Shown here in pieces: positions 6,554 to 48,292 of a stretch of 64,000 nt of DNA (the first letter of the stretch is position 1; the number at the start of each line of letters is the position of its first letter). Position numbers and translations under genes: made by a program. The notes below the pieces were generated by a model that did no database searches, was not told where the DNA came from, and saw only the letters and a program-made list of their open reading frames with translations. This DNA is from Oscillibacter sp. (lineage in GTDB: Bacteria; Bacillota; Clostridia; Oscillospirales; Oscillospiraceae): positions 1-64,000 of the forward strand of contig JAAVHC010000054.1 in the NCBI GenBank assembly GCA_014799925.1, in the 5' to 3' direction.

Positions 6554-6593
6554 AAGTCCGGCCTCCGATGCTTCACCAAAGGCCGGACTTTTT
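6554..6593. terminator. hairpin between the TPM gene and the reductase
   Basis: Arms AAGTCCGGCC (6554-6563) and GGCCGGACTT (6581-6590) enclose a 17-base loop. The T-run is on the plus strand, although the genes on both sides run leftward. It most likely ends the TPM operon transcript without a good U-tract, or blocks antisense transcription. Confidence 0.5.
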
Positions 6594-6609
6594 GATGAAT
6601 CTGGATGCC

Positions 6610-7743
6610 TTACCGGCGTCCCCCGCCGAAACCTCCGCCCCGACTGCCTCCACCGAAGCTGCCTCCTCTGGAACCTCCGCCGAAGCCGCCGCCGCGGGAC
6701 CCGCCGCCAAAGCCTCCGCTTCGGGAGCCTCCACCGAAGCTTCCGCCGCGAGAACCGCCTCCAAAGCTGCCTCCACGGGGACCTCCGCCGAAGCTGCCGC
6801 TTCCAAAGCTCCCGCCGAAACTTCCGCTGCGCGGCGGATTAGGCCGGGTGTTTCCGCCTGAGGGGGGCCGTGTTCCGCCGCCCATAGGCGGGCGCGGGCC
6901 TCCGCCGAAGCCGCCGGGACCGCCCGGCCGTCCTCCGGGAGGTGGAGGCGGCCTGTGACCGCCGCTCGGCGGCCGCCGCCTGCGGAACCACCGGCTGCCC
7001 GGGCGGTGCCACCAGAAAATGGGGCGGTACACCACCGGCGGCGCGGCCATGGTGCCGTAACGGCCATACCAGCTGCTGTAGCGGATGCTGTCGATGATGT
7101 TAAACAGCACCACCAGGAAAACAATCAAAACAATCACCGGAATCAGTGAGGCAATGATGCCGAATATTCCCGCGCCGCCGGTGAAGAAGGCATCCTCCTG
7201 GTAGCTGCCATCGGTCATGATCAGGTGCAGCTGGCCCAGCAGATTGGTCACGCCGCCGTCGTAATCGTTCTTATGAACATACTCATAGAGGCAGCCGTCC
7301 ACAAAGCTGGCGGGCTGGGCGGCAAGGCGGTCATAGAACCGCCCGCTGGCGATCAAACGGTAGTCTCCGGCCCCGGCGTCGATCAAAAGGATGGCGTCGT
7401 TCTCCCCCAGGCCGTTCGAGCCGATGCGGTTCGCCCAGTCCCAGGCGGCGTCCTCCAGATCGCCGCTGACGCGGTCCTCGGTAACCACGGCCAGGATGCC
7501 GCCGAACATTTTATCCCAGTTGGCGCTGTAAATGCCGATCGTCTTTTCCGTCTGGAAAGAGAGAATGTGGGCGTTGTCCAGAATATAGGGGTCCAGGTAG
7601 CTGGTGCTGATCGCTTCATCCAGCGGCGCGCCGCCCTCCGGGACCTCCACCACAGGCTTTTTGGACAGTCCCCACAGGGAGGACAGGACAATGGCCGCGA
7701 TCAGAACGATGGCGGCAAAGGCACGGTTTTTCAATAATTTCAT
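6610..7743 (-). CDS. TPM-domain membrane protein with glycine-rich tail
   Basis: The 377-residue protein starts with a hydrophobic anchor (residues about 8-25). A TPM/DUF477-type domain follows (about 45-175, with YILDNAHILS, NDAILLIDAG and DYRLIASGRF), then a second membrane helix (about 185-210). The tail is arginine/proline-rich and then glycine-rich, made of repeated SFGGGSRGG units. TPM domains occur in plant Psb32 and bacterial envelope proteins, some with phosphatase activity. It is last in an operon with XpaC, a 77-residue membrane protein and TelA. The start follows AAGGAG. Its exact function is not known. Confidence 0.85.
   Translation of the reverse strand: MKLLKNRAFAAIVLIAAIVLSSLWGLSKKPVVEVPEGGAPLDEAISTSYLDPYILDNAHILSFQTEKTIGIYSANWDKMFGGILAVVTEDRVSGDLEDAAWDWANRIGSNGLGENDAILLIDAGAGDYRLIASGRFYDRLAAQPASFVDGCLYEYVHKNDYDGGVTNLLGQLHLIMTDGSYQEDAFFTGGAGIFGIIASLIPVIVLIVFLVVLFNIIDSIRYSSWYGRYGTMAAPPVVYRPIFWWHRPGSRWFRRRRPPSGGHRPPPPPGGRPGGPGGFGGGPRPPMGGGTRPPSGGNTRPNPPRSGSFGGSFGSGSFGGGPRGGSFGGGSRGGSFGGGSRSGGFGGGSRGGGFGGGSRGGSFGGGSRGGGFGGGRR
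6615..6835 (-). repeat. tandem coding repeat for Gly/Ser/Arg/Phe units
   Basis: The 3' end of the TPM gene is built of imperfect 24- to 27-base units coding SRGGSFGGG-like blocks. On the plus strand this reads as recurring CCTCCGCCGAAGC words. Copy number may vary between strains through slippage. Confidence 0.8.
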
Positions 7744-9226: not shown

Positions 9227-9934
9227 TTACAGTTCAAGTTTGATATCCGTGCCGTCCGCGTTTTTCGTCGTCTCCGCCTCCATCTTTTCTCCCGCCAGAC
9301 CCTCGCGGGCCAGCATGGTTTCCAGAACGGCGATGTCGGTGGAAATATCCAGGGCGTCCGCGCCGAAGAGGCCATCCAGCTGCTTTTCAAAGGCGGTGAC
9401 GATGGTGCCCAGGATATTCTCCACCTTTTCCTTGGTGCCGGTGATGTTGTCCCCGGACACGCCGGTGGAATCCATGCGGTCATAGGCGTTGAGAAGCTTC
9501 AGCGTGGTGGGCAGGTAGTAGTTCATGAACTGCCGGATCTGGGACAGCTTGGCCGGGTCCGCCCTCACCTGGTCGAAGATCTTCCGGCAGACCGATTCCA
9601 GACGGCGGATGTCCCGGGAAATTTTTTCGTCCTCAATGGCGTCGTCCAGACGCTTCATTTCGCTGATGGCCTTCTGGCCGTCGGAGATCATCTTGTCCAG
9701 CTCCGCGTTGCCGGTGGGCTTCTCCTCCTCCCGTGGGGGATCGGGGATCACGGTTTCCGTGACCTCGTCTTTGCATACCGCCCGCAGCAGCAGGAATACC
9801 CCCAGGGACAGGACTGCCACAAAGGCGAAATGGCTGGGCTTATACAGATCCCGCAGCGCCGCCCAGACGATCCACACCGCCGCGGCGCCGTAGTATGGAA
9901 CGGTAGATTTGCGGACTTTTTTTATGGTTGCCAT
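9227..9934 (-). CDS. xpaC: XpaC-like 5-bromo-4-chloroindolyl phosphate hydrolysis protein
   Basis: The 235-residue protein has two membrane helices near the N-terminus (YYGAAAVWIVWAALRDL and FAFVAVLSLGVFLLLRAV) and a helical cytoplasmic domain. The domain carries the RQFMNYYLPTTLKLLNAYD segment that marks XpaC proteins. The name comes from a hydrolysis phenotype in Bacillus. In practice the family travels with TelA and is linked to envelope stress. It is first in a four-gene operon (XpaC, 77-residue protein, TelA, TPM) behind a strong promoter. Confidence 0.88.
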   Translation of the reverse strand: MATIKKVRKSTVPYYGAAAVWIVWAALRDLYKPSHFAFVAVLSLGVFLLLRAVCKDEVTETVIPDPPREEEKPTGNAELDKMISDGQKAISEMKRLDDAIEDEKISRDIRRLESVCRKIFDQVRADPAKLSQIRQFMNYYLPTTLKLLNAYDRMDSTGVSGDNITGTKEKVENILGTIVTAFEKQLDGLFGADALDISTDIAVLETMLAREGLAGEKMEAETTKNADGTDIKLEL

Positions 9935-43004: not shown

Positions 43005-43043
43005 TTGACAAACGTCTACCGATGTGATAGGATGCAGGTAGAC
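43005..43043 (+). promoter_or_regulatory. promoter with BlaI-like operator before the M56 gene
   Basis: TTGACA (43005-43010), 17-base spacer, TAGGAT (43028-43033). A perfect inverted repeat GTCTACC (43014-43020) and GGTAGAC (43037-43043) straddles the -10 box. CTAC/GTAG half-sites recall BlaI/MecI operators. Confidence 0.7.
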
Positions 43044-43077
43044 ATCATTATACCTGACAAAAAGAGAGGGAACGGCC

Positions 43078-46000
43078 ATGAAAGAAATCCTGCTGACCTC
43101 CTCGGTTCTGATTCTTGCGCTGCTGGCGCTGCGCCGGATATTCCGGGAGAAGATATCCCGCCGGGTGCAGTATGCCCTGTGGGGACTGGTGCTGGTGCGG
43201 CTGCTGATCCCCGTCAGCCTGCCCGCTCTGGATTTCAGCGTGCTGACCATGGCGGAACCGGTCCAGGAGACCATTTCCGCCCGGCTGGAGGCCCCGGCCT
43301 TCGCCGCCCCGGCGGTCCCTGCCATCAATTTTCAGCCCAGCTCCCAGAATACCTCCCCGGCGGCGGAGCCGAGCCTTCCCGGCGCATCACCAGCCGCCCA
43401 GCCGTCCGCCGCGCCGGCGGAGCGGGCGGAGGCCCCCGCCGCCGGGAAGGAGCTGACTCTGACGGAGGTCCTGCGCCTGGCATGGCTGGCGGGCACCGCG
43501 GCGATGACCGTGTGGCTGCTGGCGGCCAATCTGGCTTTCGCGGCAAAGCTGCGCAGAAATCGGGTCCCCGTGCGGGTCTCCGGCTGTCGGCGGCGGGCGT
43601 ATCTGGTGGAGTCCGGGCTGGTGTCCCCGTGCCTGTTCGGCGTGCTGCGGCCCGCCATCTATCTGACCCCCGCCGCCATGGCCAGCGAGGAGAGCCTCCG
43701 CCACGTGCTGGCCCACGAGGAGACCCATGCCCGGCACCTGGACCCCCTGTGGTCTCTGCTGCGGGGCGTGTGCCTGGCGGTGTACTGGTTCGATCCGCTG
43801 GTGTGGATCGCCGCGTCGGCGTCCAGGACGGATTGCGAGCTGGCCTGTGACGAGGGAGCCATCCGCCGCCTGGGGGAGGAGGAACGTCTGGCCTATGGCA
43901 GGACGCTGCTGAGCCTGGTCCCCATCCGGCGGCTGCCGGGAAATCCCCTGCTGTCCGCCACCACCATGTCCTCGGACAAGAAGCGCCTGCGGGACCGCAT
44001 CACCCGCATTGCCGAGAAGCGCAGGACCCGGAAGCTGGCCCTGTGCGCCATGGTCCTGCTGACCGCCGGGGCGTGCCTGGTGACCTTCGCCGGGTGCGCA
44101 GAGAGCGCCGGAAAGAAGGCCCCGGACGCCGCGCCCACCCCTGTGACAGAAAAGCAGGACGGCCCGCTTACGGCAGCGGAGCTGCAATACTTCAACGAGA
44201 ATTTCTTCAACGGCGACTACATGAACATCCGCAACCAGTTCCTGTCCTCCTTGTACGACGATCCGGCGGATATTGACCTCTTTGAGCTGTTCTACTGCGG
44301 CAGCGGTCAATATGAGCCGATGACGGATGAGGAATGGACCGCTTATGGCTCCGATATGACCGACACCACAAAGGTTTCCACTGCAGCGGCGGACGCGCTG
44401 CTGACGGAATATATGGGCCTTACGCTGGACGAGACAAAACAGATGGGGTTGAATAACTTCACGTATTCGCCGGAGTATGACGCATACTACTATTCCCACG
44501 GTGACACCAATTACCGGATGGATGTTACGATTCCTGCCGGGGTGCGGGAAGGAAACCTGGTCCGCCTGTACTACAATGATACCTTCTACGCCGACGGCTG
44601 GAAGCGCGTCACCCTGCGGGAGACGGAGAGCGGCGGACATTGGTTTGTATCCAACGCGTATTGTGAAAAGCCGGTTATCCCCACTGTATACCCGGTGGGG
44701 GAGCCTCTGCTGACCATCCCGCTGACGAACCTGACGGGCTATGAGCCCCAGGCGGTGGAGATGACCCATCACAGCGGGGACTGCGAGGAGCGGTTTGTCA
44801 GCTACGGCCAGAGCTGGAACGTCCGGGGCCGCCACGTCCAGGGCTACCGCTCCACGGACGGCAGGATTTACGCGGCGGAGATCACGGAGTCCGCCGCGGG
44901 CAGCGAGAGTATGGTCGTCTGGGAGGCGGACTGCTTCCTGGAGATGCCCAACGATCAGTTCTCCATGGACCTCTTCACGGACCTCTTTGGCCGGGACGGC
45001 TTCGTCCTTTCTTACACCGGAGACGTCGAGGGCGCGTACCGGTCCTACTACTCCTTCGATAAGGATGGGACCCTGTGCCTGCTGTGTACGGTGCCGGGAT
45101 ACGGCATGGACAGCCAGATCATGGACCTGGACGGCGACGGCGTGAACGAGCTGCTGTGTTCCGACAGTATGTATGACGCGCGGCTGTACTTCCAGCAGGA
45201 CGGCAGGATTTATGAGGCGGACATCGCCGCGCTGCTGAAGGAGGCGTGGCCGGAGAACCTCGGTCTGGAGTTCGACGGGCTTTCTTCTTATGCCCGTTCC
45301 CTCCCCCTGTGGACTTATTTCCAGACAGCGGGGGACAGCGGCGCGGAGTTCGGTGCAATCGCTTTCCGGACCGCCTGGTTTGACGGCGAAAACCTGCTGG
45401 TCTACAAGGTGGATAAGACCGCCGTGGACCATGTCACCCCCGGCGTCACCGGCCCGGAGGACGTGATAACCACTCTGCGTCAGGTTGTTCAGGAGCAAAT
45501 GGACGAGCGGAAACAGGATGGTGGTCTGGCGGATGCCGGGATCGACGACTGGCGGATCGTCAGCCTAGCGGGGCCCTGGTACGAGCGGTATGACGGCCTG
45601 ACCGTGGAAATCTACCGCTACAACTACGAGCTCCACGCCGCCGCGCCGGAGCGTGTCGGACTGGCTGGTGGGATGTATGTGGACGAGGACGGCTGGGTCA
45701 GTCCGGGGTATCCCGACTGCGACTATATCTATTTCCGCGTGGAGGCGGACGGCAGCCGGACGTATCTGTTCCATGACATGTCCAACGACATGGGGCCGGA
45801 CAGCGAGTGGTTCCACGACGCCCTGGAAGAGGTGCTGGTCCGGGGAGGCTATCTGGAGCCCGGTCCGGGTCAGGCGGTCCAGATGGTCTGGGATGAGATG
45901 CAGTTTGACAAATCCCTGACCCTCACCCTCCGGACGGCGGACGGCAAAGGAGGCGGGGCCTATCCCGCTTCCCTGGGCTGGAACCGGCCCGGAGACCTGA

Positions 46001-46650
46001 CGACGAATTATACATGGGAAGCCCTGACGGAGGACCAGGTCCCCGACCTCAGCGGAACGGCCTCCCTGACCGTGGGCGCAGGGGCGAATATCCTGACCTT
46101 CTACGATCCCCAGCTGGTGTCCTGCTCTGTCGATGGGGCCGCATCTTGGTACCGCGCCGCCTGCGCCGGACCGGAGGACCCCTTTGCCTGCGAGATATAT
46201 GAGTGGTTCCGGCGGTGGTATGACGAGGCGGAAATAAACGCCATGGAGGCGGCCATTCCTGTCATCCCTGATGACGGACGCAGCCGTGAGGAGATTGCCC
46301 GGACCTGGGTGGAGGCCTATGAGGGTACGCATCTGAAGGTCACCAGCGGCAGCAGGTTCAAATGTACCTATATGGACATCCAATACGTGGACCTTGACCT
46401 CTGGAATGAGGTCGATATAACGGAACTTCTGGAGGAGTACGCAGAGTCACGCGGCGCTGAGGATGTGTTCCTGTTCAACTACAGCGCGGTCTTTGTCCCA
46501 GAGGGCGACCCCCACTGGTTCATGGCGGGCAACACCGGCGAATACGAGGGCGACGACGCACCGGAAGGCGCGCTCCAGTGGTGGATGATGGGCTACATGT
46601 ACCTGATGGAGGACGGCTGGCGCTGCGACGGCGTGGGGACCGGCCCCTGA
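43078..46650 (+). CDS. BlaR1-like M56 metallopeptidase with very large C-terminal outer domain
   Basis: The 1190-residue protein starts with membrane helices (about residues 4-20 and 34-52), an alanine/proline-rich loop and the BlaR1-type protease domain with LAHEETHARHLD (HExxH near residue 212). SDKKRLRDRITRIAEKRR follows, then a last helix (about 320-340) ending in FAGC. The remaining 850 residues lie outside and contain several YxxD-rich lobes and one FG-GAP-like MDLDGDGVNELL. BlaR1 sensors are about 600 residues and usually sit beside blaI. Here no blaI is adjacent, and the C-terminal part is not a recognisable penicillin-binding domain. Confidence 0.85.
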   Translation: MKEILLTSSVLILALLALRRIFREKISRRVQYALWGLVLVRLLIPVSLPALDFSVLTMAEPVQETISARLEAPAFAAPAVPAINFQPSSQNTSPAAEPSLPGASPAAQPSAAPAERAEAPAAGKELTLTEVLRLAWLAGTAAMTVWLLAANLAFAAKLRRNRVPVRVSGCRRRAYLVESGLVSPCLFGVLRPAIYLTPAAMASEESLRHVLAHEETHARHLDPLWSLLRGVCLAVYWFDPLVWIAASASRTDCELACDEGAIRRLGEEERLAYGRTLLSLVPIRRLPGNPLLSATTMSSDKKRLRDRITRIAEKRRTRKLALCAMVLLTAGACLVTFAGCAESAGKKAPDAAPTPVTEKQDGPLTAAELQYFNENFFNGDYMNIRNQFLSSLYDDPADIDLFELFYCGSGQYEPMTDEEWTAYGSDMTDTTKVSTAAADALLTEYMGLTLDETKQMGLNNFTYSPEYDAYYYSHGDTNYRMDVTIPAGVREGNLVRLYYNDTFYADGWKRVTLRETESGGHWFVSNAYCEKPVIPTVYPVGEPLLTIPLTNLTGYEPQAVEMTHHSGDCEERFVSYGQSWNVRGRHVQGYRSTDGRIYAAEITESAAGSESMVVWEADCFLEMPNDQFSMDLFTDLFGRDGFVLSYTGDVEGAYRSYYSFDKDGTLCLLCTVPGYGMDSQIMDLDGDGVNELLCSDSMYDARLYFQQDGRIYEADIAALLKEAWPENLGLEFDGLSSYARSLPLWTYFQTAGDSGAEFGAIAFRTAWFDGENLLVYKVDKTAVDHVTPGVTGPEDVITTLRQVVQEQMDERKQDGGLADAGIDDWRIVSLAGPWYERYDGLTVEIYRYNYELHAAAPERVGLAGGMYVDEDGWVSPGYPDCDYIYFRVEADGSRTYLFHDMSNDMGPDSEWFHDALEEVLVRGGYLEPGPGQAVQMVWDEMQFDKSLTLTLRTADGKGGGAYPASLGWNRPGDLTTNYTWEALTEDQVPDLSGTASLTVGAGANILTFYDPQLVSCSVDGAASWYRAACAGPEDPFACEIYEWFRRWYDEAEINAMEAAIPVIPDDGRSREEIARTWVEAYEGTHLKVTSGSRFKCTYMDIQYVDLDLWNEVDITELLEEYAESRGAEDVFLFNYSAVFVPEGDPHWFMAGNTGEYEGDDAPEGALQWWMMGYMYLMEDGWRCDGVGTGP

Positions 46651-46933: not shown

Positions 46934-47007
46934 TGGAGCAGGGTACGGGAATCGAACCCGCCTCCTCGGCTTGGGAAGCCGATGTACTACCGATGTACTA
47001 ACCCTGC
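46934..47007 (-). tRNA. tRNA-Gly (anticodon CCC)
   Basis: The reverse strand reads GCAGGGT at the 5' end and ACCCTGC-T-CCA at the 3' end, so CCA is encoded. The anticodon arm is TCGGC-TTCCCAA-GCCGA (anticodon CCC) and the T-arm contains GGTTCGATTCC. The D-arm has GTAC-ATCGGTA-GTAC. Confidence 0.97.
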
Positions 47008-47155: not shown

Positions 47156-48292
47156 ATGAAAAAGGTGTTATCGGGCCTGCTGTCTCTGGTCATGCTGCTG
47201 GCGCTGGCGGTCCCGGCGGGGGCGGAATCCCTGGCGGTGGAGGCGGAAGCTTGTCTGTTGATGGAAAAAACCACCGGACGGGTGCTGTATGCCTTCAACG
47301 AGCATCAGCAGCTGGAGCCGGCCAGCGTTACCAAAATCATGACGGTGCTGCTGGTGATGGAAGCCATCGATTCCGGAACTCTGGGGTATGACGATATGGT
47401 CACCGCTTCGGCCTACGCCTGCTCCATGGGCGGCAGCCAGATCTGGCTGAAGGAAAACGAGCGGATGTCGGTGGAGGATATGCTGAAGGCCGTCTGCGTA
47501 GCCTCCGCCAACGATTGCAGCGTGGCCCTGGCGGAACACCTGGCCGGCAGCGTTGACGCTTTTGTGGAGAAAATGAACCGACGGGCCGGCGAGCTGGGGA
47601 TGAACGACACCAGTTTCCTCAACCCCACCGGCCTCCCTGCGCGGGGACATGTGACCAGCGCCTACGACATTGCCCTCATGAGCCGGGAGCTGATTCTGAA
47701 CCACCCGGACGTCCGCCGCTTTACCACCATCTGGATGGATACCCTCCGGGAGGGCGAGTTCGGGCTGAATAATACCAACAAGTTGATCCGATTCTACCAG
47801 GGCGCCACCGGGCTGAAGACCGGCAGCACCGACAGCGCTCTTTACTGCCTCTCCGCCACGGCGGAGAGGAACGGCATGGAATTGATCGCGGTGGTGCTCA
47901 AATCCCCCACGTCCACCCAGCGGTTTGAAAGCGCCAAGACGCTGCTCAACTACGGCTTTGCCGCCTACGCTCTCGCCCAGGCCCAGCCCCCGGAGCCGCT
48001 GTCCCCCATCCCGGTGGAGCTGGGGGACGCTCCCTGCGTCATCCCCCGGCTGGAGGACAGCCCGGTGATCCTGGCGGCCAAGGAAAAGGTCAACGCCATG
48101 GAGGTGACGGTGGAACTGGAGGAACGGCTGTCCGCTCCTGTGGAGGCGGGACAGCAGGTTGGCAGGATGGTGGTCACCTCCGGCGGAGAGGTCCTGGCGG
48201 AGCTTCCGCTGGTGGCGGAGGAGTCGGTGGCCAGACTGACCTATTGGCAGATCCTGGAACAATGTCTCAGGACGGCATTCCTGGGAGCCTGA
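47156..48292 (+). CDS. dacF: D-alanyl-D-alanine carboxypeptidase (DacF / PBP5-type)
   Basis: The 378-residue exported enzyme removes the terminal D-alanine from peptidoglycan side chains. A signal peptide (MKKVLSGLLSLVMLLALAVPAGA) is followed by the S11 domain with SVTK (active serine), SAN (ASANDCSVALAEHL) and KTG (GLKTGSTDSA), then the C-terminal PBP5-like beta domain and an amphipathic end that could anchor it. In sporulating species DacF acts in the forespore wall, and spmA/spmB are in this window. The TGA stop starts a half palindrome. Confidence 0.94.
   Translation: MKKVLSGLLSLVMLLALAVPAGAESLAVEAEACLLMEKTTGRVLYAFNEHQQLEPASVTKIMTVLLVMEAIDSGTLGYDDMVTASAYACSMGGSQIWLKENERMSVEDMLKAVCVASANDCSVALAEHLAGSVDAFVEKMNRRAGELGMNDTSFLNPTGLPARGHVTSAYDIALMSRELILNHPDVRRFTTIWMDTLREGEFGLNNTNKLIRFYQGATGLKTGSTDSALYCLSATAERNGMELIAVVLKSPTSTQRFESAKTLLNYGFAAYALAQAQPPEPLSPIPVELGDAPCVIPRLEDSPVILAAKEKVNAMEVTVELEERLSAPVEAGQQVGRMVVTSGGEVLAELPLVAEESVARLTYWQILEQCLRTAFLGA

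Follow-up and report, generated by a model that had tools for sequence, protein, structure and literature searches.

A BlaR1-type M56 metallopeptidase gene without an adjacent blaI carries the operator of a remote paralogous blaI-M56 locus in Oscillibacter sp.

Introduction

The BlaR1/BlaI system is usually presented as an antibiotic-resistance sensor. As described in Staphylococcus aureus and Bacillus licheniformis, it includes an M56 membrane protease (HExxH...E, with Tyr and Arg) and an outer C-terminal sensor, and a BlaI-type operator lies over the promoter. The key residues of S. aureus BlaR1 are H201ExxH, D210, E242xxxD246, Y261, and R294, and its self-cleavage site is S283-F284 (PMC9834060). 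In MRSA, mecA without a working mecI is controlled by BlaI-BlaR1, and in S. aureus MecI repression is not relieved by BlaR1 despite operator cross-talk (PMC3149077).

In this study, an M56 gene of Oscillibacter sp. (Clostridia, Oscillospiraceae; assembly GCA_014799925.1) was analyzed in the first 64,000 nucleotides of contig JAAVHC010000054.1, a stretch hereafter called the window. The gene shares with BlaR1/BlaI the membrane protease with its zinc-site, Tyr, and Arg residues, the outer C-terminal part, and the operator over the promoter. Unlike BlaR1/BlaI, its outer part is about three times larger and is not a penicillin-binding domain, and the locus contains neither an adjacent blaI nor a beta-lactamase gene. 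The arrangement resembles MRSA mecA/MecR1 in that a repressor-less locus would be bound by a homologous remote BlaI through a shared operator (PMC3149077). In contrast to mecA, the gene under remote control would be a second antirepressor rather than a resistance gene, and the two loci involved, that of the window and one on contig C47 of the same genome, are in-genus paralogues. The system thus appears, from its sequence, to be a BlaR1/BlaI variant with two antirepressors on one repressor. In the open-access literature, searches turned up no publication that describes outer parts of this kind in M56 proteins.

Results

An intact BlaR1-type protease

The open reading frame has exact bounds, with its ATG at 43078 and a stop codon ending at 46650, and all 1,190 codons are in frame. 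The gene and its protease part comprise the following features:

43078..46650, + strand: M56 metallopeptidase (BlaR1-type), intact, 1,190 aa (ORF, Peptidase_M56 match, dN/dS)
43078..44109, + strand: membrane protease part, residues 1-344, Peptidase_M56 (Pfam match, M56 tree)
43714..43728, + strand: HEETH zinc motif, H213-H217 (sequence, alignment, PMC9834060)
43837-43839, + strand: E254, third zinc ligand
43849-43851, + strand: D258, zinc-site residue
43963..43968, + strand: T296-M297 in the ATTM loop, aligned by analogy with the BlaR1 self-cleavage site S283-F284 (PMC9834060)

Peptidase_M56 matched residues 4-310 with 157 bits (cut-off 31). Judged by this domain, with its HExxH and distal ExxxD, the protein is a member of peptidase family M56 (BlaR1-type). 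When aligned to S. aureus BlaR1, its catalytic set is complete (H213ExxH217, D222, E254xxxD258, Y273, and R307). The initial annotation had named a non-conserved HExxH site as grounds for discarding its reading of the gene; HExxH, E254, and D258 are invariant in nine close relatives. The ATTM loop is also conserved in the alignment. By homology to BlaR1 (PMC9834060), the protease is predicted to lie inside and the C-terminal part outside.

In pairwise comparisons with the orthologues of two other genomes (G009 and G002), dN/dS was approximately 0.4 across the whole gene and 0.2-0.5 within its protease part. These values span time before the blaI deletion described below and are therefore suggestive as evidence that the gene is alive. 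Together with the complete catalytic residues, they suggest that it is not decaying.

A modular, non-penicillin outer part

The outer part covers residues 345-1190 (approximately 846 aa) and was divided into three modules:

44110..44697, + strand: outer module A, residues 345-540, alpha/beta domain (comparison of relatives, model)
44698..45429, + strand: outer module B, residues 541-784, all-beta, propeller-like (model, fold search)
45124-45153, + strand: DLDGDGVNEL loop of module B
45430..46647, + strand: outer module C, residues 785-1190, at least two alpha/beta subdomains, conserved C-terminal end GW.C.G.GTG (model)

The initial description of an outer part of about 850 residues without penicillin-binding motifs is borne out. 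Two SxxK strings occur by chance; a motif search of the outer part detected neither K[TS]G nor an ordered penicillin-binding triad. The NCBIfam model blaR1_generic scored 102.8 bits against the protein, below its cut-off of 400. None of the nine M56 proteins of the host genome showed a transpeptidase domain when scanned with Pfam, and PF00905 matched just three other genes genome-wide. PDB chains matched the window M56 solely in the BlaR1 protease region (202-324). A penicillin-sensor reading is thus ruled out: the outer part shows neither a transpeptidase motif or profile match nor a PDB relative, and on sequence criteria it is not the transpeptidase-like C-terminus (SxxK, SxN, KTG) of a BlaR1 beta-lactam sensor. 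No Pfam or NCBIfam sensor domain matched residues 345-1190 either, the sole sub-threshold hit being FG-GAP. A match to a known domain unrelated to sensing, which would have spoken against a receptor, was likewise not found in Pfam, NCBIfam, or the PDB.

The proposed structure prediction of this region yielded models of all three modules. AlphaFold2 gave a mean pLDDT of 83.6 and a pTM of 0.67 for the 846 residues (20 sequences), and a pLDDT of 91.9 and a pTM of 0.83 for residues 780-1190 (24 sequences). A fold search with the whole outer part was headed by DDB1 and other propellers with TM-scores of only about 0.1, so no homology to them is claimed and the middle module is called just propeller-like. 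For module C the search gave no convincing PDB match: the best hit, RsgI9 S1C-NTF2 (E 8e-3, probability 0.20), was rejected, and none reached E<=0.001. A lipobox (FAGC) after the last membrane helix was also rejected, because the Cys is not kept outside the genus, where the sequence is mostly T-F-T-G-A.

The modules recur among relatives. The DxDGDGxxEL loop of module B is invariant, and the C-terminal end of module C is common to many M56 proteins with differing middles. Module A is found as a single copy or as a tandem pair within the M56 protein (L088, L089, and L090). In three loci (L060 of G009, L072, and L080) a separate module-A lipoprotein gene lies between blaI and the M56 gene, indicating that this sensor module can split off as a gene of its own. 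Other Oscillospiraceae blaI-M56 pairs (L073, L078, and L095) possess modules A, B, and C in the same order; unlike the window locus, they retain blaI directly upstream. The initial annotation considered the size of the outer part notable. It is indeed about three times that of a normal penicillin sensor, but relatives reach a total length of 1,744 aa and large outer parts also occur in the host's other M56 genes, so this size is ordinary in the group. Oscillospiraceae often have M56 proteins with large outer parts of a non-penicillin kind, and the distinctive trait of the window gene is its apparently shared repressor, not its size.

Modules B and C (44698-46647, compared with L059/L060) are much nearer to G002 (68-74%) than to G009 (44-49%), whereas the protease part is slightly nearer to G009 (77%) than to G002 (74%). 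This is a sign that protease and outer part may have recombined.

Loss of the adjacent blaI

No blaI adjoins the window M56, which is thus not part of a two-gene BlaR1/BlaI module with an adjacent blaI in one operon. The host genome contains nine M56 genes, all of them complete, but just eight genes for BlaI. Eight of the nine M56 genes directly follow a blaI, the window gene being the sole exception, and no unpaired BlaI gene was found in the genome. Among 80 loci fetched from public genomes, blaI lies upstream in all 77 with enough upstream DNA to be usable; in two of these, an intervening module-A lipoprotein gene puts it approximately 780 bp from the M56 gene. A family-wide search, drawn partly from the same species, gave 17 of 17 usable loci. 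The same-genus orthologues and close paralogues all have blaI upstream, mostly with a 4-bp overlap with the M56 gene, and all carry the operator form described below. The term "orphan", as first applied to the gene, therefore fits it in this species and not in the sampled relatives.

Since the sampled relatives always have blaI, the window copy has evidently lost it while retaining promoter and operator. In the M56 tree, the window protein groups with those of G009_C84 and G002_C1, both of which have blaI, and the C47 clade is sister to this group. Taken with the blaI genes of the relatives, the tree indicates that an in-genus duplication gave two blaI-M56 loci and that this species deleted one blaI. 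G002 retains both copies, each with its own blaI.

An operator shared with contig C47

The leader that remains upstream of the window gene contains the following elements:

43005..43010, + strand: -35 box TTGACA (promoter with 10/12 matches; same in 9/9 same-genus subfamily loci)
43014..43020, + strand: left operator arm GTCTACC, within the promoter spacer (operator searches, leader alignment)
43028..43033, + strand: -10 box TAGGAT, extended, with TG at 43025-43026 (promoter score, sequence)
43037..43043, + strand: right operator arm GGTAGAC, over the expected transcription start (operator searches, leader alignment)
43048..43054, + strand: third operator arm TTATACC, 4 bp past the right arm (leader alignment)
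43065..43071, + strand: likely ribosome-binding site (AGAGAGGG region); blaI of the relatives starts about here (sequence, leader alignment)

The promoter is TTGACA-N17-TAGGAT with an extended -10 box. As first noticed, a BlaI-like inverted repeat brackets the -10 box: GTCTACC-N16-GGTAGAC (43014-43043) has zero mismatches, and its right arm lies about 34 bp from the start codon. The third arm, TTATACC here, is GTATACC in most relatives, including many of the same-genus loci.

The combined -35 and operator sequence (TTGACAAAC-GTCTACC-N16-GGTAGAC) occurs exactly twice in the 2.97 Mb genome (control 0), and no further copy was found there within 3 mismatches. The second copy is the promoter of a paralogous blaI-M56 pair on contig C47:

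Contig C47, about 9383-9766: C47 BlaI, candidate repressor of the window M56 (own promoter with the same -35 and operator)

A slightly relaxed operator pattern gave 8 hits in 25 same-genus genomes (reversed control 0), all at promoters of this subfamily: two in the host and one each in six other genomes. By inspection, the other seven blaI genes of the host have different upstream sequences, for example TGTCATG...CATGACA on C50 and ATTCTATCGCGATAGAAT on C7. By its promoter and operator, the window gene is a predicted member of the C47 BlaI regulon. The idea that its repressor is encoded elsewhere is thus strongly supported at this level, and the repressor can be named as C47 BlaI, a putative substrate of the window M56.

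At the orthologous locus of G009, BlaI is 80% identical to C47 BlaI and has an identical YGGSLGLMMSAMVES segment. The S. aureus BlaI cut site, N101/F102, aligns inside YGGSLGLMMSAMVES of C47 BlaI, beside a Met. By analogy, the predicted cuts would place Met at P1' in both C47 BlaI and the window M56 (ATT/M), versus Phe at both in S. aureus. The orthologous locus of G002 has a drifted operator, GTCTACA...AGTAGAC, and encodes a BlaI with just 65% identity to that of C47. In this single case the drift looks like insulation, as opposed to the identical operators in the host.

The C47 branch and the neighbors of the window gene

The C47 locus consists of blaI, a gene for a 591-aa M56 protein with a short sensor, and a gene for a secreted His/Cys-repeat protein. 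This locus shares with that of the window gene the identical -35 and operator, a related protease (58%), and module B, which alone forms the outer part of the C47 M56; unlike the window protein, the C47 M56 has no modules A and C and has a His-rich loop, and its locus includes the third gene. The third gene (L021, about 6565-7068; likewise in L062, L063, L064, and L065) is present in 5/5 C47-clade loci and in none of the other loci scanned. Its product is a secreted protein of approximately 170 aa that has a His-rich tail besides three Cys/His repeats (GRHVHNGVTYCGYAH...); it matched no Pfam family above the cut-off. The His-rich loop of the C47-clade outer part contains 5-6 His, a number reduced to 0-2 in the window clade. 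Loop and repeat protein together suggest that a metal may be the signal of the C47 branch. A wall-related ligand, as initially proposed for the window protein, is unsupported, in that neither a wall-binding nor a transpeptidase domain could be detected in it and the sole hint within the regulon, from the C47 branch, would if anything suggest a metal.

No obvious target gene adjoins the window M56. Its downstream neighbors are as follows:

46934-47007, - strand: tRNA-Gly, downstream of the window M56
47156-48292: D-alanyl-D-alanine carboxypeptidase (DacF-like), beyond the tRNA-Gly

Regulation of dacF was considered and rejected, because the opposite-strand tRNA-Gly intervenes and no operator match was found there.

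Discussion

The window M56 is probably an antirepressor of the BlaR1 type that has lost its own blaI by deletion and runs on the shared C47 BlaI. The intact protease, the lost blaI, the unique shared operator, the modular non-penicillin outer part, and the in-genus paralogy with C47 all support this reading at the sequence level. We infer repressor binding, ligand, cleavage, and output in the following form. A C47 BlaI dimer would occupy the window's GTCTACC-N16-GGTAGAC, identical to its own operator, and keep the promoter off. A signal bound by outer modules A-B-C would switch on the HExxH protease in the cytoplasm. The protease would then act on C47 BlaI, cutting its C-terminal dimerisation part, probably within YGGSLGLMMSA/MVES. 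Both operator-bearing promoters, that of the C47 operon (blaI, M56, and the His/Cys-rich protein) and that of the window gene, would thereby be derepressed, and two distinct outer sensors would converge on one repressor in an OR-gate-like manner.

The BlaR1/MecI case (PMC3149077) means that sharing an operator is no proof that the window protease cuts C47 BlaI. The lost blaI may also have differed from C47 blaI, as its G002 orthologue does. With its cognate blaI gone, and with repressor specificity separable from operator cross-talk (PMC3149077), the window gene could be a passive leftover that is regulated by C47 BlaI, no longer meets its substrate, and is on its way to loss. We regard this as unlikely, given the intact reading frame, the dN/dS value (which includes pre-loss time), and the invariant catalytic residues; moreover, its branch in the M56 tree is short (0.13, versus 0.17 for the blaI-bearing G009 copy), and the likely cleavage segment of C47 BlaI is that of the orthologous G009 BlaI. 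A receptor that cleaves itself or a substrate other than BlaI, its level just being set by BlaI, would fit the surroundings of the gene, where only the tRNA-Gly and then the separate dacF follow, and the conserved ATTM loop, which the alignment places at the self-cleavage site of BlaR1. This is very improbable, since in every relative the M56 gene overlaps blaI or lies almost next to it, which marks BlaI as the ancestral partner. An assembly artefact, with blaI dropped or the deletion misassembled in a draft of 84 contigs (97.9% complete), is likewise very improbable. The junction lies well within the contig and reads as a clean leader with operator, ribosome-binding site, and ATG; window and C47 agree in GC (0.598 vs 0.604) and tetranucleotide usage (correlation 0.975); and by inspection no collapse-causing repeat was noticed at the junction.

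If the shared-repressor reading holds and the C47 signal is a metal, the window receptor would give this switch a further input of another kind. A two-input proteolytic switch, with one sensor possibly metal-responsive and a single BlaI left after the loss, is a tentative proposal that we hold at somewhat below even chances; G002, with both blaI genes, would be arranged as if insulated. The window gene represents a natural deletion that reveals repressor dependence, and this deletion makes ligand, specificity, and cross-talk testable with one operator reporter. In gut Oscillospiraceae, receptors of the BlaR1/BlaI family have multiplied, to nine copies in one genome, and their outer parts are modular and of a non-penicillin kind.

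Two other loci of the host were also noted. The outer part of the M56 protein at L027 (C7, 5757-8378) ends in a Peptidase_M23 domain (PF01551, 101.7 bits), whose last zinc motif is VLHFE where HxH is usual; this domain may therefore be non-catalytic and may serve as a wall-binding sensor. At C12:48510-51612, a blaI-M56 pair is immediately preceded, on the same strand, by a gene with a transpeptidase domain (PBP); it is the only pair in the host genome with a classical-looking neighbor.
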